Shown here piece after piece: positions 1,620-42,816 of a stretch of 42,816 nt of DNA; the first letter of the stretch is position 1, and every line of letters begins with the position of its first letter. The notes under the pieces were generated by a model that was not told the DNA's origin, did not search any database, and worked only from the letters and a program-made list of their open reading frames with translations. The translations under genes were made by a program, and so were the position numbers. The stretch is from a virus, in IMG/VR virus record IMGVR_UViG_3300028597_000030, positions 1-42,816 of that record. One strand, 5' to 3'.

Positions 1620-4070
1620 ATGATCTTCAAGGACATCCTGGCCCGGTTCGCTGAGGTGACGGAGGAGGCGGACGGGGGTTACCTGGCGCGTTGCCCGGGA
1701 CACGACGACTCCAGTCCGTCCCTCCGGATCTGGCGTGGGGAGGACCTCAAGGTCCGGCTCACGTGCCGTGCCGGTTGTGACACCAAGGACGTCATCAAGG
1801 CCGTTGACCTCTCCTGGGAGGCCCTGTTCAACGCTGAGGGGGAGGGCTCCACGGTCGCCAAGGAGCCCCCCTCCCTGGTCTCCCGCCCGTCGCTCCTGGC
1901 CTCCCTGGCCCGCTACGTGGACGACACGGCGGAGGGCCTGGCGGACCCGGAGGACGACACGGCGGCCAAGGCCCGCACGTATCTGGCCGTACGGTTCGGC
2001 GTGGACCAGGACCTGGCCAGTGATCTGGAGCTGGGCGTGGACGACGGCCAGGCGGCCCCGTATTTCACCGCACGCTCCGCCGCTTACCGGGCGTTCCCCC
2101 GTCTCACGGTCCCCCTCATGAACTTTGAGGGGAACCCCCACGGCCTCCAGGGTCGGGACCTCTCCGGGGACTGCCCCGGGAGGTGGGTCTCCCTCAAGAA
2201 CCCCAAGGGGGAGCGCTGGGGCCAGTACGGCGTGTTCCGGGGTCAGGGAGGCTACGGGGTCACCATCGTCTCTGAGGGCCCCGGAGACGGCCTTACGGTG
2301 GCCGCCGTGGGCTACGACGCCGTGTGCATCCGGGGGGCCGCCCTCACGGCCTCCCCCGAACTGCTCAAGGAGCTTGCCCATGGCCTCCAGGGTCAGCTTG
2401 TCATCGTGGCCGGAGATGGGGACAAGGCCGGCCAGCGCTTCAACCGTGCCCTTGCGGAGGGGCTTGGCGCGCACGGTATCCAGGTCCGTTCCCTGGCGCT
2501 CCCTGGGGGTGCCGGTGACGTCACGGCCTGGCGCGAGTCAGACCCTCAAGGCTTCCCGTTCGCGCTCCACAAGGGCGTCAAGGAGGCCGGCCCGGTACCC
2601 CCAGCGGATGGTCCTGGCGATGAGCCCTCCGCCTCCGTGGCCGTGGAGCGAACTGGAACGGTAACCGTCTCGTCGGACCAGGGCGTAGAGGCCCTGGAGC
2701 TCCTCAAGGCACTCACGAACCGGTACGGAGCGTCCGACACGCTGAACGCTCACGCGCTGGTGGCGTGGACGGACGGCCGGATCAAGTTTGCTCCGGGTCT
2801 GGGGTTCTACGTGTGGAACGGCCAGGTCTGGGAGCGTTCGGAGGTCAAGGTCCGGCAGGAGATTCACCGCATGGGGGCCGCCCTCATGCTCTCCGGTTCG
2901 GAGGAGGGCCGTAAGGCGTCCAAGGGCTTCACCATGAGGACGAACATCGACAACCTCATGGTGGAGCTCCGCAGCGTCCCCAGCGTCCACGTGGATGCGG
3001 CGGAGTTCGACTCCAAGCCGGACCTCCTCAGCTTCCGGAACGGCACGGTGGAGCTCCGCACGGGGACGCTGCGGCCCCACGCCAAGGAGGATCTCCTCAC
3101 CTACTGCCTCACCATCGACTATGACCCGGACGCCAAGTGTGGCCGGTGGGAGTCGTTCCTGGCGGAGATCTTCCCGGAGAACCCGGATCTGGTTCCGTAC
3201 GTCCAGCGTCTGGTGGGCTACGGCATCACCGGGTACACCGACGAACAGTGTTTCTGTGTGCTCTGGGGGAAGGGTGCCAACGGTAAGAGTGTCCTCACGG
3301 ACACCCTCACGGACGTGTTCGGGGCCATCTCCAAGACCACCCCGTTCTCCACGTTTGAGGAGAAGCCCTCCGGCGGCATCCCGAACGACATCGCGGCCCT
3401 CCGGGGCTCCCGCCTTGTCATGGCCAGCGAGGGTGACAGCGGTAAGGCCATGTCGGAGGCCATCCTCAAGCGGGCCTCCGGTAAGGACAAGATGACGGCC
3501 CGGTTCATGCGCCAGGAGTTCTTCACGTTCACCCCCACGTTCCTCATCATGTTGGCCACCAACCACAAGCCCAAGTTCCGGGGCCAGGATGAGGGTCTCT
3601 GGCGACGCGTCAAGATGATCCCGTTCAAGCGTTGGTTCGCTCCGCACGAGAGGGACTACACGCTGGACAAGAAGCTCCAGGCGGAGGCGGAGGGCATCGC
3701 TGCCTGGGCCGTCCGTGGGGCCGTGGAGTGGCTCGCAAACGGCCTCCAGGACCCGGAGAGCATCACGGCGGCCAGCAAGGAGTACCGGGAGACGTCGGAC
3801 GCCCTGGCGGGGTTCCTCCCGGGCGTCATGGTCAAGGATGACTCCGCTCCGCCGCTGAACGGTACGGAGGCGTTTAACGCCTACCTGGACTGGTGTGAGG
3901 CGGAGAACCTCCCTGCCCGGGAGCGCTGGACGCGTCGGACCTTCTACGACGCGATGGAGGAGCGCGGGATCACCCGTAAGAAGACTGCCAAGGGTATTGC
4001 GCTGGTAGGTGTCGCCATGGCGCACGCCCCGGTGGCCGTGGCCGGCCCGGGGATCTTCTCCCAGTCCTGA
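1620..4070 (+). CDS. DNA primase-helicase (TOPRIM primase plus SF3 helicase)
   Basis: An 816-aa replication protein. The N-terminus carries a CHC2-like zinc site (C25, H28, C49, C53 in CPGHDD and CRAGC). A TOPRIM fold follows, with VSEGPGD near 217-223 and AGDGDKAG near 264-271, where E219, D266 and D268 would bind metal. A superfamily III helicase of the P4/D5 type follows, with Walker A GKGANGKS near residue 550. In one polypeptide it would prime and unwind phage DNA for the polymerase at 4852. The ATG is preceded by GGAAGGAATCAC. Its length is normal for fused phage primase-helicases. Confidence 0.9.
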   Translation: MIFKDILARFAEVTEEADGGYLARCPGHDDSSPSLRIWRGEDLKVRLTCRAGCDTKDVIKAVDLSWEALFNAEGEGSTVAKEPPSLVSRPSLLASLARYVDDTAEGLADPEDDTAAKARTYLAVRFGVDQDLASDLELGVDDGQAAPYFTARSAAYRAFPRLTVPLMNFEGNPHGLQGRDLSGDCPGRWVSLKNPKGERWGQYGVFRGQGGYGVTIVSEGPGDGLTVAAVGYDAVCIRGAALTASPELLKELAHGLQGQLVIVAGDGDKAGQRFNRALAEGLGAHGIQVRSLALPGGAGDVTAWRESDPQGFPFALHKGVKEAGPVPPADGPGDEPSASVAVERTGTVTVSSDQGVEALELLKALTNRYGASDTLNAHALVAWTDGRIKFAPGLGFYVWNGQVWERSEVKVRQEIHRMGAALMLSGSEEGRKASKGFTMRTNIDNLMVELRSVPSVHVDAAEFDSKPDLLSFRNGTVELRTGTLRPHAKEDLLTYCLTIDYDPDAKCGRWESFLAEIFPENPDLVPYVQRLVGYGITGYTDEQCFCVLWGKGANGKSVLTDTLTDVFGAISKTTPFSTFEEKPSGGIPNDIAALRGSRLVMASEGDSGKAMSEAILKRASGKDKMTARFMRQEFFTFTPTFLIMLATNHKPKFRGQDEGLWRRVKMIPFKRWFAPHERDYTLDKKLQAEAEGIAAWAVRGAVEWLANGLQDPESITAASKEYRETSDALAGFLPGVMVKDDSAPPLNGTEAFNAYLDWCEAENLPARERWTRRTFYDAMEERGITRKKTAKGIALVGVAMAHAPVAVAGPGIFSQS

Positions 4071-4084
4071 CACACCAGACAACC

Positions 4085-4120
4085 AAGGGACCAGCCACTC
4101 ACGTGAGTGGCTGGTCCCTT
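4085..4120 (+). terminator. CTCACGTGAG palindrome, copy 2
   Basis: Perfect 36-bp inverted repeat with CCACTCACGTGAGTGG at its centre, followed by CTTCACG. It is identical, with its flanks ACCAAGGG and CCCTTC, to copy 3 on the other side of the methylase gene. A partial repeat TCACGTGAGGAG follows directly and supplies the next ribosome site. Confidence 0.65.
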
Positions 4121-4136
4121 CACGTGAGGAGAGATC

Positions 4137-4784
4137 TTGACCATTCGAGTGTTGGACCTCTGCTGTTGCTCCGGGGCCGTCAGTAAGGGGTTCATGGATG
4201 CCGGAGCGGAGTACGTGGAGGGTTGGGACATCGTGGACCGACCCAGGTACCCGTACGCGTTCCACCAGGGGGATGCGCTGGAGGTCCTCCGGGACGTCGC
4301 GTACCTCCGGACGTTCGGCTTCATTCACATCTCCCCGCCGTGCCAGGCCAAGTGCACGCTCACGCTGGGTTCGAACGCCCGGTTCGGTAAGACCTACGTG
4401 GACATCTACCCGGAGGTCCGGGACCTGATGTACGCCAGCGGCGTTCCGGGGTCCATAGAGAACCCCAGTAGCCGGCCGGACATGGTCCTTTGCGGAGAGA
4501 TGTTCGGTCTCGGCGTCATCCGTCACCGCAAGTTTGAGCTGGTGAACTGGTCCGCCTCCAAGCCTGTTCACGTCAAGCACCGGGGGCGTGTCCGTGGTTG
4601 GCGTCACGGCGTGTACTACGACGGCCCGTACGTCCAGGCGTACGGCAACGGTGGCGGTAAGGCGGACGTGCCGGAGCTCCAGGAGGCCATGGGAATCCAC
4701 TGGACCGACGTCCGAAAGGAGCTCACGGAGGCAATCCCGCCGGCGTATGGGGAGTACATCCTCCGGCGCTTCCTGGCCGCCTGA
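4137..4784 (+). CDS. C5-cytosine-type DNA methyltransferase
   Basis: A 215-aa protein with an AdoMet-binding start VLDLCCCSGAVSKGF (motif I, residues 5-19), HISPPCQ at 64-70 with the catalytic-type Cys69 (motif IV), and ENP at 108-110 (motif VI). It is shorter than host C5 methylases and has little room for a target-recognition domain, as in several actinophage methylases. It probably modifies phage DNA against host restriction. The TTG start has GAGGAGAG 5 bp upstream. The gene is bracketed by two identical 36-bp palindromes, so it may be an exchangeable cassette. Confidence 0.8.
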   Translation: MTIRVLDLCCCSGAVSKGFMDAGAEYVEGWDIVDRPRYPYAFHQGDALEVLRDVAYLRTFGFIHISPPCQAKCTLTLGSNARFGKTYVDIYPEVRDLMYASGVPGSIENPSSRPDMVLCGEMFGLGVIRHRKFELVNWSASKPVHVKHRGRVRGWRHGVYYDGPYVQAYGNGGGKADVPELQEAMGIHWTDVRKELTEAIPPAYGEYILRRFLAA

Positions 4785-4795
4785 CTCAGATCACC

Positions 4796-4831
4796 AAGGG
4801 ACCAGCCACTCACGTGAGTGGCTGGTCCCTT
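4796..4831 (+). terminator. CTCACGTGAG palindrome, copy 3
   Basis: Perfect 36-bp inverted repeat identical to copy 2 and followed by CTTG. It lies between the methylase stop and the polymerase ribosome site AAGGAGAG. Confidence 0.65.
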
Positions 4832-7216: not shown

Positions 7217-8083
7217 GTGGCGCTTACCGCCAAGACCATCACGGACGCCAAGGCCGGAGACCTGGAGGCCGTCCAGGCCGTCACGGCGGCCACGGACCGC
7301 ATCATCGGTTCCCTGGCCAACGATGCCGCCAACAAGGGCGGCAAGGGCCACATGCACGTGGCCACGCTAAAGGAGGAGCTGGAGGCGGAGGGTCGCCTGG
7401 CACTCTGGGAGGCCATCTCCCGCTGGGAGGGTGACCACCACTCCGGCGCCACCCCGGAGACGTTCCTGTTCCAGCGCATCAAGGGCGCCATCCACGAGTG
7501 CCTCCAGCGCACGGTGAACCCCGGTGCGGACCTGGACGCCCTCCGTGTCTTCACCCAGTGCCTCCGGGTGGCGGACGGGAACCTGGACCTGGCCGCTGAG
7601 CTTTGCACAACCCTCCCGGAGAAGGGCCGCCGGCTCTCCCTGGATAGGGCCCAGGCGGCCAAGTTGGCATACCAGGGGGCCCGGAGCCTGGACGCTCCCC
7701 TCCCGGGTTCGGAGGACGGCTCCCAGACCCTGGGGGACACCCTGGCGGAACTGGTCCCCTATGACGTGCCGGAGGACCTCCTGGACCCCAGCGACGTCAC
7801 GGCCCGCCAGCGCACTCTCCGGCTGACCATCTTCCGTGCCGTGTTCGGCTCCCTCTCGGAGTTCCGCCAGGGCGTCCTCAAGATCCGGGCGGAGTACGGC
7901 CAGGGCGTGGACCTGGACATGGACACGGAGGACGTCCGGGAGATGGCCCGGGACCGGGGCCTCAAGGGTGAGGGCATCCTCCCCGCCCGTGAGGAGGTCA
8001 ACGACGCGTGGCGCAAGGGCATCAAGCAACTCCGGGAGTCCCTCCCCGTGGACGTCCTCTACCCCGCCCGTACGGGCCGCTGA
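7217..8083 (+). CDS. RNA polymerase sigma-70-like factor
   Basis: A 288-aa protein with sigma-like architecture. A region 2-like segment (AEGRLALWEAISRW, then PETFLFQRIKGAI) lies near residues 57-92. A central segment has SLDAPLPG and TLGDTLAEL, the usual lead-in to regions 3 and 4. A region 4-like helix pair follows (FGSLSEFRQGVLKIRAEYG). Phage sigma factors redirect host RNA polymerase to phage promoters. The GTG start has GGAG upstream. The long leader implies tight control. The box GGGCCGCTGACCCCAGAG overlaps its stop. The assignment rests on pattern and could be weaker than it looks. Confidence 0.6.
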   Translation: MALTAKTITDAKAGDLEAVQAVTAATDRIIGSLANDAANKGGKGHMHVATLKEELEAEGRLALWEAISRWEGDHHSGATPETFLFQRIKGAIHECLQRTVNPGADLDALRVFTQCLRVADGNLDLAAELCTTLPEKGRRLSLDRAQAAKLAYQGARSLDAPLPGSEDGSQTLGDTLAELVPYDVPEDLLDPSDVTARQRTLRLTIFRAVFGSLSEFRQGVLKIRAEYGQGVDLDMDTEDVREMARDRGLKGEGILPAREEVNDAWRKGIKQLRESLPVDVLYPARTGR

Positions 8084-10889: not shown

Positions 10890-10925
10890 AGGGGACCAGC
10901 TACTCACGTGAGTAGCTGGTCCCCT
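10890..10925 (+). terminator. CTCACGTGAG palindrome, copy 6, terminator-like
   Basis: Perfect 36-bp inverted repeat followed by TTCTTG, 9 bp after the stop of the 456-aa gene. Good rho-independent terminator form. Confidence 0.7.
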
Positions 10926-11167
10926 TTCTTGTGTCCTCCTGTCTGACACCCTGTCAGAAACTCTCTGGCATATGCACTGGACTCGCACGCGTGTTCGATA
11001 CAAGATGGCCGTCCGTCACTCGAACGGGTGAAAGGTTCGCCCAGTGTGACGAAAATCCGCCACGGTGCGCAGGTTAAAGAAGAGACAAAGGATTCAGGAG
11101 GAGTACAGGTAACTGGCCGCTACTGGCGGTAAGCGGAGCGCAAAATGTGACCCTGGGGAGGGTGTAA
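10926..11167 (+). promoter_or_regulatory. Intergenic control region
   Basis: About 240 bp without a gene. It holds an operator-like dyad TCTGACA-CCC-TGTCAGA at 10942-10958, a possible -10 (TACAAG near 11001) and a small CCGC/GCGG stem near 11120. The base composition is less GC-rich than its surroundings. It probably carries the promoter of the 11168 gene and a regulator site. Confidence 0.4.
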
Positions 11168-11620
11168 GTGTTGGCCAAGAGATTCCCCCGACTGGAGACC
11201 CCCACGGTGCGCGTAAGCATCGAGACTCTCGAACGGGACGCGCGGGGGGTGGCCGCCTGGGGAGTGCTGGAGGTACCCCCGCCAGCGGAGGAGTACGTCT
11301 ACACCGCCGGGGAGCTCCGCCGCACGCTGGTGGCCTACGGGGCCGCCGTGGGGGTCATGATGAGCCGCTCCCATGCGGAGGAGTTCAGGCTGGTGGCGCA
11401 CGGCATGTTCACCGGCCGGCTCCTGGGCCTCTATCACCTCCAGTGGTGCCCAGCGGCCCGCCGGTTCCTCCCGGCCAACCAAGGCCCCATGACTGCCTGG
11501 CCACCCGTGGAGGAGCTCCCGCTGGAGGTCCTGGCCGGAGCGGCCATCCACGCCATGGACCCCATCCCGTTCCCGGGTGGGCCCCAGGTCATCCACCACC
11601 CGGTAGCGTCCGCCTCATGA
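11168..11620 (+). CDS. Hypothetical protein, 150 aa
   Basis: GTG start with GGGGAGGG 5 bp upstream. The protein has a likely helical centre (GELRRTLVAYGAAVGVMMSRSHAEEF) and ends PHPVASAS-like without motifs I can name. It sits between the candidate regulator and the ATPase, in the region expected to govern lysogeny. Function unknown. Confidence 0.6.
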   Translation: MLAKRFPRLETPTVRVSIETLERDARGVAAWGVLEVPPPAEEYVYTAGELRRTLVAYGAAVGVMMSRSHAEEFRLVAHGMFTGRLLGLYHLQWCPAARRFLPANQGPMTAWPPVEELPLEVLAGAAIHAMDPIPFPGGPQVIHHPVASAS

Positions 11621-11874
11621 GGGTCACATGGATCATCGTTGGCGCTGGGGTAGGGGGGCGGACCGTGGAGGACGTGGAGGAGGCCGTCCAGGCCGTCCAG
11701 GGGGCCGTCCGGGAGTCGCTGGCTCCCCATCCTCCGGAGGTGGCCGCCAAGGTCCTCCACGGGGCCTGGGGGCCGCTGAGGGCCGCACTGGTGACCGATG
11801 GTCGGATGGCTGTCAGTCAAGGCCGGAGCTGGTCCAGTTCTTCGGGGGGAATCTCCGTGGAACTACTTCCCTAG
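11617..11874 (+). CDS. Hypothetical protein, 85 aa
   Basis: ATGA overlap with the gene before. It starts MRVTWIIVGAGVGG and continues with an alanine- and valine-rich helix (VEDVEEAVQAVQGAVRESL). The short start is glycine-rich but not a full nucleotide-binding motif. Function unknown. Confidence 0.5.
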   Translation: MRVTWIIVGAGVGGRTVEDVEEAVQAVQGAVRESLAPHPPEVAAKVLHGAWGPLRAALVTDGRMAVSQGRSWSSSSGGISVELLP

Positions 11875-11888
11875 CGTGAGTAAGTGAC

Positions 11889-11901
11889 TACGCTGGTCCC
11901 C
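11889..11901 (+). promoter_or_regulatory. Possible leaderless promoter of the ATPase gene
   Basis: TACGCT at 11889-11894 stands 7 bp before the ATG at 11902, and there is no ribosome site. The spacing would place the transcription start on the A of ATG. No clear -35 is seen. Confidence 0.35.
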
Positions 11902-12477
11902 ATGACAGCAACCGATTACGCACCCGCACATCAGCTGGTCCAGGGCCCCGTCCACGCCCAGGGATGGGGCTCCGTGGGGTTCCTCCTGGATGACGCCAGC
12001 GCGGTCCGCCAATGCCGGCGGGCCGCCCGCTGGATGCTGGGTGCCTGGGGACTGGGTCCGGTCAAGGTTCTGGTGGAGGACGTGGAGCTGGTGGTCTCCG
12101 AGCTGGTGACGAACGCTCAGCGCTACGCCGGAGACGCCTACCACGCCGGTAGCTTCACGGTGTGGGCCCCGGGGGACCGTGTGGTCATCACGGTGCATGA
12201 CAAGGGTGACCTCCCGTGGATCACCAACTGGTGGACGGAATCCACCACGGAGGGCCGCGAGGAGTGGCACGACTGGGTGAACGACATCGCGGCCACCGGG
12301 GGCCGTGGCCTGGCGCTGGTCCGGGACGTCCTGGCCACATATGAGGGCACCCTGGACGTGGTGGGGGACCAGGATCTCCGCATGCCGGGGAAGGTGTTCC
12401 GGGCCACGCTCCCGCTCCCGGAGAGGTTCTGGAGGGCCAGGCCCAGGGACCCGTTCTACGACTGGGCCACGGCCTAG
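11902..12477 (+). CDS. HATPase-domain protein, anti-sigma (RsbW)-like
   Basis: A 191-aa protein with GHKL ATPase motifs: N box SELVTNAQRY (E67, N71), G1 box VHDKG (D100) and G2 box GGRGLALVRD (133-142). This is the single-domain type common in Streptomyces, where members act as anti-sigma kinases or developmental regulators. No histidine-kinase dimerisation or membrane segment is present. It lies in the lysogeny region and may act on a host or phage sigma factor, which is an inference. It looks acquired from a host genome. An in-frame GTG at 11884 is an alternative start. Confidence 0.75.
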   Translation: MTATDYAPAHQLVQGPVHAQGWGSVGFLLDDASAVRQCRRAARWMLGAWGLGPVKVLVEDVELVVSELVTNAQRYAGDAYHAGSFTVWAPGDRVVITVHDKGDLPWITNWWTESTTEGREEWHDWVNDIAATGGRGLALVRDVLATYEGTLDVVGDQDLRMPGKVFRATLPLPERFWRARPRDPFYDWATA

Positions 12478-12487
12478 GATCGGAGGC
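12475..12487 (+). promoter_or_regulatory. Possible leaderless promoter of the zinc-ribbon gene
   Basis: TAGGAT at 12475-12480, a good actinobacterial -10, overlaps the ATPase stop codon and lies 7 bp before the ATG at 12488. GGAGG is also present but only 1 bp from the ATG, too close for normal use. Confidence 0.4.
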
Positions 12488-12823
12488 ATGACCAGCGATT
12501 CAGACACGTGTGCCAGGTGTGACCGGACGGCCCAGGACCTCCTCTGTGCGGCATGCGGGGAGCTCCTCCGGCGCGCACGGCGCAAGCAACGGAGCAAGGA
12601 GACCCTCACCCCGGAGGAGAAGGACGCTTACCGCGCGTACCGACGTGCGTACATGGCCCGCCAGCGAGCGGCGGAGCGGGAGGCGGACCCGGACGGGTAC
12701 CTGGCCCGGAGAGCGGAGGAGCAACGGGCCTGGAGAGAGGCCAACCCAGAGAAGGCCCGGGAGATGAACGCTGCGCACAACCGGGACTACAGACAGAGGG
12801 CCAAGGGCCGCCCAGAGCAGTGA
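12488..12823 (+). CDS. Zinc-ribbon, basic coiled protein, 111 aa
   Basis: The N-terminus has CARC and CAAC pairs (residues about 8-25), which would bind zinc. The rest is highly charged and helical (YRAYRRAYMARQRAAERE; NPEKAREMNAAHNRDY). This resembles the N-terminal repeats seen before HNH or endonuclease VII domains, but no catalytic domain follows. It may be a DNA-binding accessory protein or a shortened endonuclease. It lies just before attP and the integrase. Confidence 0.5.
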   Translation: MTSDSDTCARCDRTAQDLLCAACGELLRRARRKQRSKETLTPEEKDAYRAYRRAYMARQRAAEREADPDGYLARRAEEQRAWREANPEKAREMNAAHNRDYRQRAKGRPEQ

Positions 12824-12825
12824 AC

Positions 12826-12851
12826 AACCCCCGTCCATGAGGGCGGGGGTT
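12826..12851 (+). terminator. Hairpin terminator upstream of attP
   Basis: AACCCCCG and CGGGGGTT pair around a 10-nt loop directly after the stop at 12823. Only a weak T run (TGTTTC) follows. Confidence 0.5.
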
Positions 12852-12874
12852 CGCTGTTTCCGCTGGTCAAGCCT

Positions 12875-12924
12875 GGTGTACCCTGTGGGGGAGCCGCTAA
12901 GGCGTAGCCCCCACGGGGGATACC
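12875..12924. other. attP: Candidate attP site
   Basis: Imperfect inverted repeat of about 50 bp centred at 12899/12900: GTGGGGG (12885-12891) mirrors CCCCCAC (12908-12914) around AGCCGCTAAGGCGTAG. Attachment sites of large serine integrases are imperfect dyads of this size, and in phiC31 attP lies immediately upstream of int, as here. The crossover dinucleotide could be AA at the centre. It could instead be an int promoter hairpin. Confidence 0.5.
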
Positions 12925-12956
12925 ATCGGACCATGAGACTAGGAGTCGTGACCGGT

Positions 12957-14672
12957 ATGGACGTCCACGCCGGAGTGTATGGCCGCCAGTCCTTGAGGCG
13001 GGCCAACAAGTCAGAGGTGAGTACGGAGGACCAGCTCAAGAAGGGCGTGGCCAGGGCCCGGGAGCTGGGCGCCTCCAGCATCGCCACGTATGAGGACCTG
13101 GGTATATCCGCGTTCTCCGGGGCGGAACGCCCTGACTTTGAACGCATGCTGGCTGACTGCCGTGCCGGCCGGCTGAATGTCGTCATCGTGTACTACGTGT
13201 CCCGCTTCTCCCGCCTGGAGGTAGCCGACGCCCTCCCCGTGTGCCAGGAGCTCCTCAACCTGGGCGTGACCATCGTGAGCCTTACGGAGGGCACGTTCAA
13301 GCGGGACAACATCATGGACCTAATTCATCTCATCTTCCGCCTGGACGCCGCACACCAGGAGTCCAAGAACAAATCCGTGGCCGTCAAGAGCGCCAAGGCC
13401 ACGGCCAAGGAGCTGGGAGGCTGGTCCGGCCCCGCACCGTACGGGTTCGAGACCTATGAAGACGTCATGACCCGTACCGGTCAAGATGGCCGCTCCCGCT
13501 CTATCGTGATCAAGCGTCTCCGCCCGAACAAGGAGGAGTGCGCCATCGTTGCCACCCACGTGTTCGCCCCCGTCATCGCCCACATGGACACGCCCTATGA
13601 CCCTGGATACATGCGCTTCCACCCCGGGTCTGTCTCCGGAGTAACCACCAACCTGAACCGGCTCTCCATCCCTACTCGCGGAGCGAAAGTGGGGAAAGAA
13701 CGGGCCGCCTCCCAGTGGGACCGCAAGACCGTGGGCCGCATCCTCCAGGACCCCCGGTTCATCGGGTACATGGCCGAACCGGTCTATGACAAGGAGGCCC
13801 GGGGCCGCAAGGTGACCGGATACCGGGTCATCCGGGACGACGACGGGCACCCCGTCAAGGCCCCGTGGGACCCCATCGTGGACCCCGGGGAGTTCTGGCG
13901 CGTCCAGGAGTGGCTCCAGGGCCGGCGGACCTCCAGCGCGAACAACAAGGGGGACTCCCTCCTCTCCGGACTGGGCCTCATGCGCTGCCTCTGCGGCGCC
14001 ACATGGAAGGCCACGCGCTACCCGGCCACCAAGACCCACCCGGAGGGCCAGCGGGCCTACCGGTGCAACATCGGACAGCGGGACACCCAGGTCCACACGG
14101 GGACCCCCACCATCGGCATGGACGCCCTGGACAACTACGTGGCGAACCGGATCTTCTCCCTCATCCGGGCCGCTGAGGACGATGAGGACGCCCTCCTCAT
14201 CCTCGCTGAGGTCCAGGAGCGCTACTCCCGCAAGCTGGAGACCCCGGAGACGTCCGGGGAGCGCCAGACCCTCCTCACGGAGCGTGCAGAGGTACGCCAG
14301 GGCCTGGAGGAGCTCTACGACGAACGCGACGCCGGAGGGTTCCGGACGGACATCGGCAGGCGCCGGTTCCTCAAGTCGGAGACAGCGCTGGCGGAGCGGC
14401 TGGAGGGCCTGGACAAGCGACTGGAGGAGCTGGAGGCCGGCAAGGAGCGTCCCCTCCCGCTGGCCCAGTGGCAAGCCTGGGGTGAGGACCCCACGGGCCC
14501 GGGGAGCTGGTGGTCCAAGCGCACCCTGGAGGAGCGCAGGGAGTTCGTCCAGCTCTGGATCAAGAGCATCACCATCCGGCCACTGGCGCGTCCCCGGGTG
14601 GCGGAGCCACTGAGCCGGCGGGTGCGGATCGAGTGGCACCGGCCCACGGAGGAGCTGGGAGCTGTGGCGTAG
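12957..14672 (+). CDS. int: Large serine integrase, phiC31 type
   Basis: A 571-aa serine recombinase. The start at 12957 puts the nucleophile in YGRQS at Ser12, exactly as I recall for phiC31 integrase, and AGGAG lies 11 bp upstream. A start at ATG 12933, 7 bp after TACCAT, is possible if the mRNA is leaderless. Resolvase domain: VYYVSRFSRLEVADAL, then MDLIHLIFRLDA. The recombinase and zinc domains follow, with CLCGATWK and a later cysteine (YRCNIG), and a coiled region near the C-terminus. It would integrate the phage at the candidate attP directly upstream. Confidence 0.92.
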   Translation: MDVHAGVYGRQSLRRANKSEVSTEDQLKKGVARARELGASSIATYEDLGISAFSGAERPDFERMLADCRAGRLNVVIVYYVSRFSRLEVADALPVCQELLNLGVTIVSLTEGTFKRDNIMDLIHLIFRLDAAHQESKNKSVAVKSAKATAKELGGWSGPAPYGFETYEDVMTRTGQDGRSRSIVIKRLRPNKEECAIVATHVFAPVIAHMDTPYDPGYMRFHPGSVSGVTTNLNRLSIPTRGAKVGKERAASQWDRKTVGRILQDPRFIGYMAEPVYDKEARGRKVTGYRVIRDDDGHPVKAPWDPIVDPGEFWRVQEWLQGRRTSSANNKGDSLLSGLGLMRCLCGATWKATRYPATKTHPEGQRAYRCNIGQRDTQVHTGTPTIGMDALDNYVANRIFSLIRAAEDDEDALLILAEVQERYSRKLETPETSGERQTLLTERAEVRQGLEELYDERDAGGFRTDIGRRRFLKSETALAERLEGLDKRLEELEAGKERPLPLAQWQAWGEDPTGPGSWWSKRTLEERREFVQLWIKSITIRPLARPRVAEPLSRRVRIEWHRPTEELGAVA

Positions 14673-36384: not shown

Positions 36385-36465
36385 GCGTTCCGGGGTTGCG
36401 CTGGTGTCCAACCGTACTGTTAACTGGTGCTCCACCCGGAAACCACGGACAAAGGACACGGGACG

Positions 36466-37941
36466 ATGCGATTCAGCCGGACCAAGAGTGCTACGGGAGC
36501 CACCCAGTACCAGGCTGAGGGCGTTACGTTCCGGTACACCGTGGAGCGTGACGGTAAGGACTGGCTCCTCACTATCCGTCGCCTGGAGACGGTGGCCGGC
36601 ATCCGGGTGGCCGTCCAGGGCCGTCCGGTGGAGGAGACGACAGCGGACCGGATGACCACCTGTAAGGACATCGCCACGGAGTTTGAGGCCCTGGGGGATG
36701 GTTACCGCTCCGCTGACCACGGCCACCGTGAGCGCTTCACGGAGGCTGTCCTCCGGGCCTACGGTGACGCCAGCTCCTCACGTGAGGAGGAGGGCTTGAC
36801 CCAGGCCCCCGACTCCAGTAACGTCCCTTCTCGCAACACCACGAACGAACACACCAACCAAGGAGAGATCACCATGGCCGCCAAGACCACCACCGACACC
36901 AAGCCCTCCGCCGCTGAGATCAAGGCGGACGTGGAGACGGCCCTGGAGGCCCTCACCACGGCGGACACCCAGGACAAGGTGGACGGCCTGTCCGCCCAGA
37001 TCCAGGAGTCCCTCAAGGGCCTCCGGGTGAACCAGCGGGTCGGCCTGGAGATGCGACGCAAGGAGGCCGTGGCGGAGGCCACGGACAGGCTCAAGGAGGC
37101 GGCCAAGCCCTCCACGGAGGTCGCCACCAAGCCCAAGGCGTCCGCCTCCTGGATGGAGATGAAGGGCGGAGAGGAGGAGGCCAAGAAGCTGATGGAGGCC
37201 GGCGTCTCCCGCATCCGTGAGGGCGCGGAGATTGGCCTCAAGGCCGCTGACCTCTTCAAGGAGGTCGCGAATGTGATCTTCGTGGGCCGCCTCCGCCTGG
37301 AGAACAAGGCCGGCCTCCCGGACATCACGGGACGCTCCCAGGGTGCCCGGAACCTCTCCACGGACATGTTCACGGAGGCCAAGAAGACCGTGGCGGAGGA
37401 TCAGGTGGACCTCCTGGAGTTCCACGCCTCCCTGGCCAAGGGCGTCCAGAACCGTATGACGGACGTCACGGTGGAGTTCCTCCGGAAGCTGGCGGGGCTC
37501 TCGTGGGAGGACGCTGCGGAGCTGTTCCCGTTCCTGGCCGGAGAGGGCGTCAAGCGCATCCTGGCCAAGATGGGCCCGGAGGCCCCGGAGGACGCCGACC
37601 CGGAGACCCTGGTCCGCTACGTCTACGCACAGAACGGAATCGACCTCCCCACGGAGACCCGTGCGGAACTGGCCGCCCGCAAGCGTGCGGAGGCCAAGGA
37701 GCTGGAGAACAAGAAGGAGGAGGCCCCGGAGGGTGAGGGCGAGGGAGAGGGTGAGGGCCAGGAGGACACCCACACCCCGGCGGAGGAGAAGCTCCTGGCC
37801 GATGCCGCCAAGCTGGCCGACACGGTCAAGAAGCTGGGCGCCAAGGGCAAGAAGCTGGAGCCGGAGCTCAAGGCCGCCCTCAAGGCCCGCCTGGACGACG
37901 CCCTCAAGGAGTTGGCCGTGGCGTCCGCCGCCCTGGCGTAA
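36466..37941 (+). CDS. Upstream gene open in frame into the next gene (possible 491-aa fusion)
   Basis: ATG at 36466 follows AAAGGACACGGGACG. The first 100 or so residues look like a normal small protein (MRFSRTKSATGATQYQAEGV, then FTEAVLRAYGDAS). No stop codon follows. The frame passes through palindrome copy 14, a promoter and the ribosome site of the gene at 36874 and continues to 37941. Either a read-through fusion is made, or a stop was lost here. Residues encoded by the junction (SSSREEEGLTQAPDSSN) look non-domain. Family unknown. Confidence 0.45.
   Translation: MRFSRTKSATGATQYQAEGVTFRYTVERDGKDWLLTIRRLETVAGIRVAVQGRPVEETTADRMTTCKDIATEFEALGDGYRSADHGHRERFTEAVLRAYGDASSSREEEGLTQAPDSSNVPSRNTTNEHTNQGEITMAAKTTTDTKPSAAEIKADVETALEALTTADTQDKVDGLSAQIQESLKGLRVNQRVGLEMRRKEAVAEATDRLKEAAKPSTEVATKPKASASWMEMKGGEEEAKKLMEAGVSRIREGAEIGLKAADLFKEVANVIFVGRLRLENKAGLPDITGRSQGARNLSTDMFTEAKKTVAEDQVDLLEFHASLAKGVQNRMTDVTVEFLRKLAGLSWEDAAELFPFLAGEGVKRILAKMGPEAPEDADPETLVRYVYAQNGIDLPTETRAELAARKRAEAKELENKKEEAPEGEGEGEGEGQEDTHTPAEEKLLADAAKLADTVKKLGAKGKKLEPELKAALKARLDDALKELAVASAALA
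36774..36789. repeat. CTCACGTGAG palindrome, copy 14
   Basis: CTCCTCACGTGAGGAG, 6 bp upstream of the -35 of the promoter at 36796. Third arm type, no terminator form. It is located where a repressor or activator would bind. Confidence 0.65.
36796..36824 (+). promoter_or_regulatory. Sigma-70-type promoter before the 36874 gene
   Basis: TTGACC (36796-36801), 17-bp spacer, TAACGT (36819-36824). The -35 and spacer length match the promoter at 9440. The palindrome lies directly upstream. It would start transcription about 45 nt before the ATG at 36874. Confidence 0.65.
36874..37941 (+). CDS. Hypothetical coiled-coil protein, 355 aa
   Basis: ATG behind AAGGAGAGATCACC. Largely helical, with a charged N-terminal part (AAEIKADVETALEALTTAD), a middle segment GGEEEAKKLMEAGVSRIREG, and a Glu/Gly tract (EGEGEGEGEGQED). 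No membrane segment. It is read from its own strong promoter with an adjacent palindrome, so it should be an abundant early or regulated product. Function not recognised. Confidence 0.65.
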   Translation: MAAKTTTDTKPSAAEIKADVETALEALTTADTQDKVDGLSAQIQESLKGLRVNQRVGLEMRRKEAVAEATDRLKEAAKPSTEVATKPKASASWMEMKGGEEEAKKLMEAGVSRIREGAEIGLKAADLFKEVANVIFVGRLRLENKAGLPDITGRSQGARNLSTDMFTEAKKTVAEDQVDLLEFHASLAKGVQNRMTDVTVEFLRKLAGLSWEDAAELFPFLAGEGVKRILAKMGPEAPEDADPETLVRYVYAQNGIDLPTETRAELAARKRAEAKELENKKEEAPEGEGEGEGEGQEDTHTPAEEKLLADAAKLADTVKKLGAKGKKLEPELKAALKARLDDALKELAVASAALA

Positions 37942-40348: not shown

Positions 40349-41098
40349 ATGGCCATGAAGATCTGGCAGACGGACCCGGAGAACAAGCCCCAGGAGTCCG
40401 CCTCCCGTAACGCGGACCTGGACGGACTGGTCAGCACCGGCACCCAGGACGCCGACGGGAACCCCGTCTCCCTGGACACGTTCCGGTTCGCCACGTCGAA
40501 CCCCGCCCTGGCCGACGCCATCGCGGAACTGTTCGGGGGAACCCCCGTGGAGACCTCCCGGACGTCTGACCACTTCATCGACGTCATCACGACCCGGGAC
40601 AAGCTCCTGGTCATCGTGGACGGCCCCCAGGGTCTCTACAGCGACATGAAGCGCTGGCACAACGGCAAGTTGGCCCACCACTGTGACGGGATGGCGTTCC
40701 TCTCGCACGCCAAGGAGAACATGGTGGGCAAGGCGTGCGGGTGTCCGGAGCTGTTCGTGGAGCGCAAGGAGGCCGCGCGGGATGGCATCGGCCCTTCCCC
40801 CTCCATCGACCTGACGTTCAGGCCGGCGGATGACCCGGACCTGGGCACGTTCAAGCTGCACACCGGGTCCTGGGGCCTGGCCAAGGTCCTCCACCAGGCG
40901 GAGGAGAAGCTGGAGCGCATCGACGGCCCCGCCCTGGTGGAGATCTCCCTGGAGCTGGTGGAGTTCACCATCAAGAAGGGTCCCAAGAAGGGGACCAAGG
41001 TGAGCTACTACCTCCCCAAGATCCGGCCCATCAAGGCGTACGCGGACGCCGTGGCGGATGACCCCACGGAGGACTACGAAGGGGAGGCCCCGTTCTAG
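40349..41098 (+). CDS. Recombination directionality factor, phiC31 gp3-like
   Basis: A 249-aa protein. The start MKIWQTDPENKPQ and later GTFKLHTGSWGLAKVLHQAEE and VEISLELVEFT agree with my memory of the gp3 family of phiC31 and its relatives, which binds the serine integrase and turns it from integration to excision. Cys-rich GKACGCPELF is near residue 130. ATG follows AGGAGAACACAGACC. It stands in the early gene region, not beside int, as in phiC31. A search is needed for certainty. Confidence 0.7.
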   Translation: MAMKIWQTDPENKPQESASRNADLDGLVSTGTQDADGNPVSLDTFRFATSNPALADAIAELFGGTPVETSRTSDHFIDVITTRDKLLVIVDGPQGLYSDMKRWHNGKLAHHCDGMAFLSHAKENMVGKACGCPELFVERKEAARDGIGPSPSIDLTFRPADDPDLGTFKLHTGSWGLAKVLHQAEEKLERIDGPALVEISLELVEFTIKKGPKKGTKVSYYLPKIRPIKAYADAVADDPTEDYEGEAPF

Positions 41099-42350: not shown

Positions 42351-42816
42351 ATGACGGAGTTCAACAAGGGCGCCCTGGTCACCATCACGGGGGACTACAA
42401 GCGTGCCCAGTACACCGTGGAGGCCGGCCCGTTCAAGGCCATCGCCGTGGACCACGGGTGCTACGTGCTGGAGGGTCCGGGAGGAAACCACCGATGGGTG
42501 GCCGCCCATCGGCTGGAGGCGTACCGGGACAAGCCGGAGGGCTACCGCAAGGGGGACCGCGTCAAGGTGGGCACCCACGGCCTCCTGGGCATGGGCACCC
42601 TCATGGACGGCCCGTTCCGCCAGGCCAGCGGCCAGGTCTGCTGGCTGGTCCTCACGGACTCCCCGGCCAACCACGTCATGGTCCCGGAGGCGTTCCTGGA
42701 CGTCCAGGAACGTCCGGGGGAGAAGCGGGACACGGAGGGTCACGTCACCATCGGTAACAAGGTGTACGCCGTGGGGCCCAGGTACCGGGACCGGTACGGG
42801 GATCTCTGGGACACGG
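42351..42816 (+). CDS. N-terminal part of the gene split by the contig ends
   Basis: ATG behind AGGAGAGAGAC, in frame through the window end and, after closing the circle, through bases 14-252. It begins MTEFNKGALVTITGDYKRAQ. A second similar block (EGYRKGDRVKVGTHGLLGMG) follows near residue 75. The whole protein is close to 197 aa. No recognised family. Confidence 0.75.
   Translation, partial: MTEFNKGALVTITGDYKRAQYTVEAGPFKAIAVDHGCYVLEGPGGNHRWVAAHRLEAYRDKPEGYRKGDRVKVGTHGLLGMGTLMDGPFRQASGQVCWLVLTDSPANHVMVPEAFLDVQERPGEKRDTEGHVTIGNKVYAVGPRYRDRYGDLWDT
42691..42816. repeat. Right copy of the 126-bp terminal overlap
   Basis: Exact match to 14-139. Removing one copy gives a circle that preserves the interrupted gene. 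Confidence 0.9.

Follow-up and report, generated by a model that had tools for sequence, protein, structure and literature searches.

A phage-specific HATPase of the RsbW/SpoIIAB kind and its phiC31 gp26-type neighbour at the integration site of Streptomyces phages: a possible regulatory pair

RsbW, UsfX and SpoIIAB are anti-sigma factors and serine kinases. Proteins that consist of a HATPase domain only form an abundant class in Streptomyces, with at least 26 in S. coelicolor, and stand-alone HATPases regulate the physiology of these bacteria (PMC9137472). Host development contains phage infection and protects Streptomyces (PMC10117723), and phages of Bacillota alter dormancy through sigma factors (PMC9429907). 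Our literature search found no paper on a phage switch of the anti-sigma type in Streptomyces, and searches on gp26, the early promoters of phiC31 and Streptomyces phage HATPases returned nothing relevant. Here we analyse a HATPase gene in a stretch of viral DNA of 42,816 nucleotides (the whole of IMG/VR record IMGVR_UViG_3300028597_000030; hereafter the window), together with the gene immediately upstream, which encodes a small protein first seen in phage phiC31 (Table 1).

A phage family of single-domain HATPases

The reading frame of the HATPase gene is open from a GTG at 11884; the start was placed at ATG 11902 because the alignment of relatives begins there. Pfam assigned the 191-aa protein to HATPase_c_2 (41.5 bits against a cut-off of 27.4) and to HATPase_c (33.7 bits), with no HisKA or phosphoacceptor domain beside them, and it belongs to PHROG 23818 (1.4e-58). 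It is a GHKL/HATPase_c_2 protein with a Bergerat fold and intact N, G1 and G2 boxes. As E67, N71, D100-K101 and the G134-R-G box are invariant across the phage members, the protein could plausibly bind ATP and carry out kinase chemistry. Lid length differs among members, and phage-specific motifs (GSVGF; LLPN..W.H..RDPW) mark the ends of most of them. The AlphaFold2 (AF2) model was predicted with intermediate confidence (pLDDT 71), the lid, tail and terminal motif segments being poorly modelled. Close pairs gave dN/dS values of about 0.08-0.3, a sign of purifying selection, which argues that the reading frame is a real, functioning gene and not a product of chance.

When a profile of 11 phage members was compared with the PDB, SpoIIAB and RsbW were the top matches (2e-4 to 1e-3). 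Consistent with this, a fold search with the AF2 model placed RsbW (TM by target 0.84-0.90), UsfX (with RsfB or SigF) and SpoIIAB ahead of histidine kinases, an order seen across the Pfam, profile and fold searches, so that RsbW/SpoIIAB is the closest class by both profile and fold. The NCBIfam model for the RsbA anti-sigma family (NF041045) matched all 11 members, every one under its curated cut-off (34.9 against 210 bits), which leaves the phage protein outside that family. An earlier note on this DNA had proposed a single-domain HATPase of anti-sigma type; together, the Pfam, profile, fold and NCBIfam searches bear this out and place the protein with RsbW, SpoIIAB and UsfX. We disregarded a PDB sequence match to the designed protein RPB_PLP3_R6, which was judged an artefact of repeats or designed helices. 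PADLOC returned no match, leaving a reading of the locus as a defence system unsupported.

Viral searches with the single HATPase sequence found nothing; searches with an alignment retrieved relatives. The family is carried by four named phage types (Nesbitt/AbbeyMikolon, Rowa, Shawty and the window), by IMG/VR contigs and by one Streptomyces prophage, with identities of 56% for Nesbitt gp53 and for AbbeyMikolon, 39% for Rowa and 37% for Shawty. When HATPases of hosts and of other phages were added to one tree with the family, it came out as monophyletic (support 99/99) on a long stem. Only one of 199 Streptomyces genomes held a match at E<=1e-20, located in a prophage that is collinear with the full length of the window, and no close relative outside prophages, as recent host capture would leave, was found in the 199 genomes at that threshold. 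The protein, which the earlier note had described as host-like, belongs to an old phage-specific clade and is no recent copy of a host gene. At the DNA level, megablast showed no near relative for the module itself; the structural genes of the window are related to those of Abbeymikolonvirus and SF1 (about 82% DNA identity).

The HATPases of Raleigh and ToastyFinz formed another group in the same tree. Unrelated single-domain HATPases were observed in Raleigh (L009:3905-4273), ToastyFinz (L010:3920-4354) and SF1 (L012:17475-17924), and the Streptomyces phages appear to have acquired such proteins repeatedly. Two annotated starts appear to lie too far downstream, by 33 codons in Shawty gp53 (L003:6501-7058) and by 6 codons in Nesbitt gp52 (L002:6216).

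The integration site and the small partner

The four genes from 11168 to 12823 appear to form a separate transcription unit, bounded by the palindrome upstream and the hairpin downstream. Its first gene is conserved in the Abbeymikolonvirus group and partly in contig L017, and the inverted repeat with its GA-A-GATGG block is likewise retained ahead of the unit in Nesbitt and in the G191 prophage. In this prophage, whose attL/attR core is GTGAAGGCGTA, the integrase lies at one end and the HATPase unit at the other, at the attR edge, about 0.4 kb from host DNA. The location in a "lysogeny region" held in part: the attP core and serine integrase follow the unit directly, whereas the c repressor and the RDF are encoded elsewhere. 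Since the repressor gene is 24 kb from the HATPase gene, only the integration half of such a region is adjacent.

Table 1 Features of the window relevant to the HATPase locus
Feature	Coordinates	Strand	Remarks
Phage sigma-like protein	7217..8083	+	phrog_32691; candidate but disfavoured HATPase target
36-bp perfect palindrome	10890..10925	+	Terminator-like; upstream boundary of unit; -33.6 kcal/mol, z -7.9
Inverted repeat GTTCGA-N21-TCGAAC	10993..11025	+	Spans conserved GA-A-GATGG block; putative regulated promoter
First gene of unit	11168..11620	+	150 aa; phrog_28535; overlaps partner start by 4 nt
Small partner gene	11617..11874	+	85 aa; phiC31 gp26 C-terminal-domain family; phrog_19898; 27 nt upstream of HATPase ATG
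HATPase gene	11902..12477	+	ATG start; 191 aa; N box S66-E67-L-V-T-N71, G1 V98-H-D100-K-G, G2 G134-R-G-L
Last gene of unit	12488..12823	+	111 aa; phrog_34075; Nesbitt gp54-like
Strong hairpin, likely terminator	12822..12858	+	Between unit and attP; z -3.3; also kept in Nesbitt (z -4.6)
attP core	12899..12911	.	Deduced from attL/attR of related prophage (GTGAAGGCGTA)
Serine integrase	12933..14672	+	Frame open from 12837; in-frame ATGs 12933, 12957
phiC31-type c repressor	36427-37941
gp3-like RDF	40349-41098
TCACGTGA palindromes	264-297, 4085-4120, 4796-4831, 6785, 9393, 10890-10925, 16067, 19330, 22481, 25747, 29850, 32175, 35393, 36774, 40216

Some 15 palindromes with TCACGTGA at their centre, most of them apparently intergenic and spanning up to 36 bp in all, are scattered over the window (16 matches against about 0.4 expected). 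They are candidate operators of the phiC31-type c repressor, and some are also terminator-like. The palindromic sequence that opens the record (1-48, CGTTCCTGGACGTC..) is found again near its end (42691-42712).

The small partner gene lies directly upstream of the HATPase gene in 12 of 12 lineages (the window, Nesbitt/AbbeyMikolon, Rowa, Shawty, L014-16, L017, L018, L019, L020, L021-24 and the prophage). Like the HATPase gene, it is under purifying selection. AF2 predicted a confident bb-aa-bb fold (pLDDT 96), for which the PDB held no match better than E 1.5; it was tried as STAS, as DUF397 and as a fold known from the PDB, none of which matched. The C-terminal half of phiC31 gp26 superimposed closely (Foldseek TM 0.95). 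In phiC31, gp26 (L006:5737-6261) consists of a GntR winged helix-turn-helix (wHTH; Pfam 60.8 bits) followed in frame by the partner domain, although this join might reflect an over-long start call and not a true fusion. Because the domain also occurs without the HATPase (phiC31, TG1, Dubu and contigs L027, L031 and L034), it must have a role of its own. It is commoner than the HATPase among phages and is the older and more widespread of the two. The evolutionary distances of partner and HATPase correlate (r 0.84), which may only reflect common descent. The linkage is strict, yet linkage is not interaction.

Of 394 Streptomyces genomes, 29 held weaker relatives of the partner (E<=0.001); several of these relatives are stand-alone genes that encode about 90 aa. 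One chromosomal relative (L082, around 8016) adjoins, on inspection of the sequence by eye, a conservon-like set of kinase, roadblock and G protein genes. Some phages carry a second, antisense partner copy just before the integrase (L021:2906-3187(-), L027:7167-7460(-), L008 near 4022-4267), so that both copies converge; the window has none. The idea that phiC31 gp27/gp28 represent a split HATPase was rejected, as phiC31 gave no HATPase profile match.

Candidate targets of the HATPase

We tentatively rank first, as possible rather than probable, that the HATPase is an ATP-dependent switch or kinase which acts with its gp26-type partner on SigB-type regulation of the host. Under this model, an RsbW/SpoIIAB-type ATP-binding protein, predicted to be an anti-sigma factor and serine kinase, would function as a pair with the product of the gene immediately upstream. 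The partner would replace the STAS antagonist of ordinary partner-switch modules and either bind the HATPase or be phosphorylated by it. Free HATPase would then bind host SigB/F-family sigma factors or phosphorylate their anti-anti-sigma factors, shifting the stress or sporulation programme of the infected or lysogenic cell to the advantage of the phage. The basis, as far as sequence can indicate, is the fold class, the intact ATP site, the phage-specific family, the strict partner linkage and the bounded unit at the attR edge of the prophage; the correlated distances of the two genes, their purifying selection and the conserved inverted repeat and end hairpin of the unit also speak for it, and the anti-sigma kinship of the HATPase and its independence of the phage sigma suggest a target in the host. 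Counted against it are a partner that is not STAS-like and has its own role without the HATPase, a distance correlation that may stem from common descent, and the pLDDT of 71 for the HATPase model. The neighbour of the HATPase matched nothing in Pfam and differs in fold from a STAS anti-anti-sigma factor, no STAS-like gene was seen among the window genes scanned, and no SigB/F-type sigma gene is adjacent, the distant sigma-like gene at 7217 being the only sigma candidate. The specific proposal of a two-protein phage switch, made at the prophage edge, in which the new-fold gp26 domain replaces STAS as antagonist or substrate of an RsbW-type kinase and rewires the sigma factors of Streptomyces development and stress, is distinctly doubtful.

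Ranked second, and somewhat unlikely, is that the HATPase acts inside the phage only, controlling the gp26-type partner as a transcription regulator and so, indirectly, early phage transcription or the choice between lysis and lysogeny. The greater age and spread of the partner and its GntR fusion in phiC31 suggest such a target, and the conserved inverted repeat upstream of the unit is in keeping with it. However, the partner lacks a DNA-binding domain in the window and the other HATPase phages, the phiC31 fusion may be the start-call artefact mentioned above, and Dubu, TG1 and phiC31 do without a HATPase. The further suggestion that the HATPase targets, as an anti-sigma factor, the sigma-like protein of the phage itself was not favoured and is very unlikely. 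Although the two genes occur together in most HATPase phages, the sigma is also found in phiC31, TG1, phiBT1 and many more phages without the HATPase, and was undetectable in one HATPase-bearing contig of 43 kb. Moreover, the sigma-like protein matched sigma region 2 only, with no match to region 3 or 4, whereas SpoIIAB-type proteins grip region 3. About equally unlikely is a moron-type gene for lysogenic conversion, sited next to the attachment site, that benefits the host cell without direct use in phage growth: a bounded unit at the prophage edge would fit, but morons are patchy and recently gained, and the HATPase is kept across diverged phage genera at one constant position alongside a fixed partner and integrase.

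A phage-specific RsbW-type HATPase with its partner by the integration site makes phage tuning of the host stress or sporulation programme, our preferred reading, testable. The pair also offers an initial clue to the function of phiC31 gp26, which adjoins a much-used integrase.

Comparison with known systems

In common with RsbW, SpoIIAB and UsfX, its best profile and fold matches, the phage protein is a single Bergerat-fold domain that retains the N-box E/N, the G1 D and the G2 glycines. It differs in its low identity (about 17%), a lid that is both long and variable, phage-specific segments at its N and C termini, a non-STAS neighbour and the lack of a SigB-type sigma gene nearby. SspH (PMC9137472) and the RsbA family (NF041045), which exemplify the HATPase-only proteins of Streptomyces, are likewise stand-alone actinobacterial HATPase_c_2 proteins with N, G1 and G2 boxes, whereas the phage HATPase forms a separate clade on a long stem and its host matches are weak and partial. 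The family itself is already known as PHROGs clusters without a function. PHROG 23818, Nesbitt gp53, Shawty gp53 and Rowa gp57 share its site ahead of attP and int, while their annotations give no function and lack the link to the partner; the name "histidine kinase" for Shawty gp53 is misleading because there is no HisKA domain or receiver. Raleigh and ToastyFinz are also Streptomyces phages with a single-domain HATPase, but theirs is a separate lineage downstream of a divergent HTH regulator, with no gp26-type partner seen. The partner corresponds to the C-terminal half of phiC31 gp26 (phrog_19898), whereas phiC31 lacks the HATPase and its gp26 carries the N-terminal GntR domain in frame. 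The phage HATPase is thus new in its clade and in its non-STAS partner, and its core is common to RsbW-like HATPase-only proteins.
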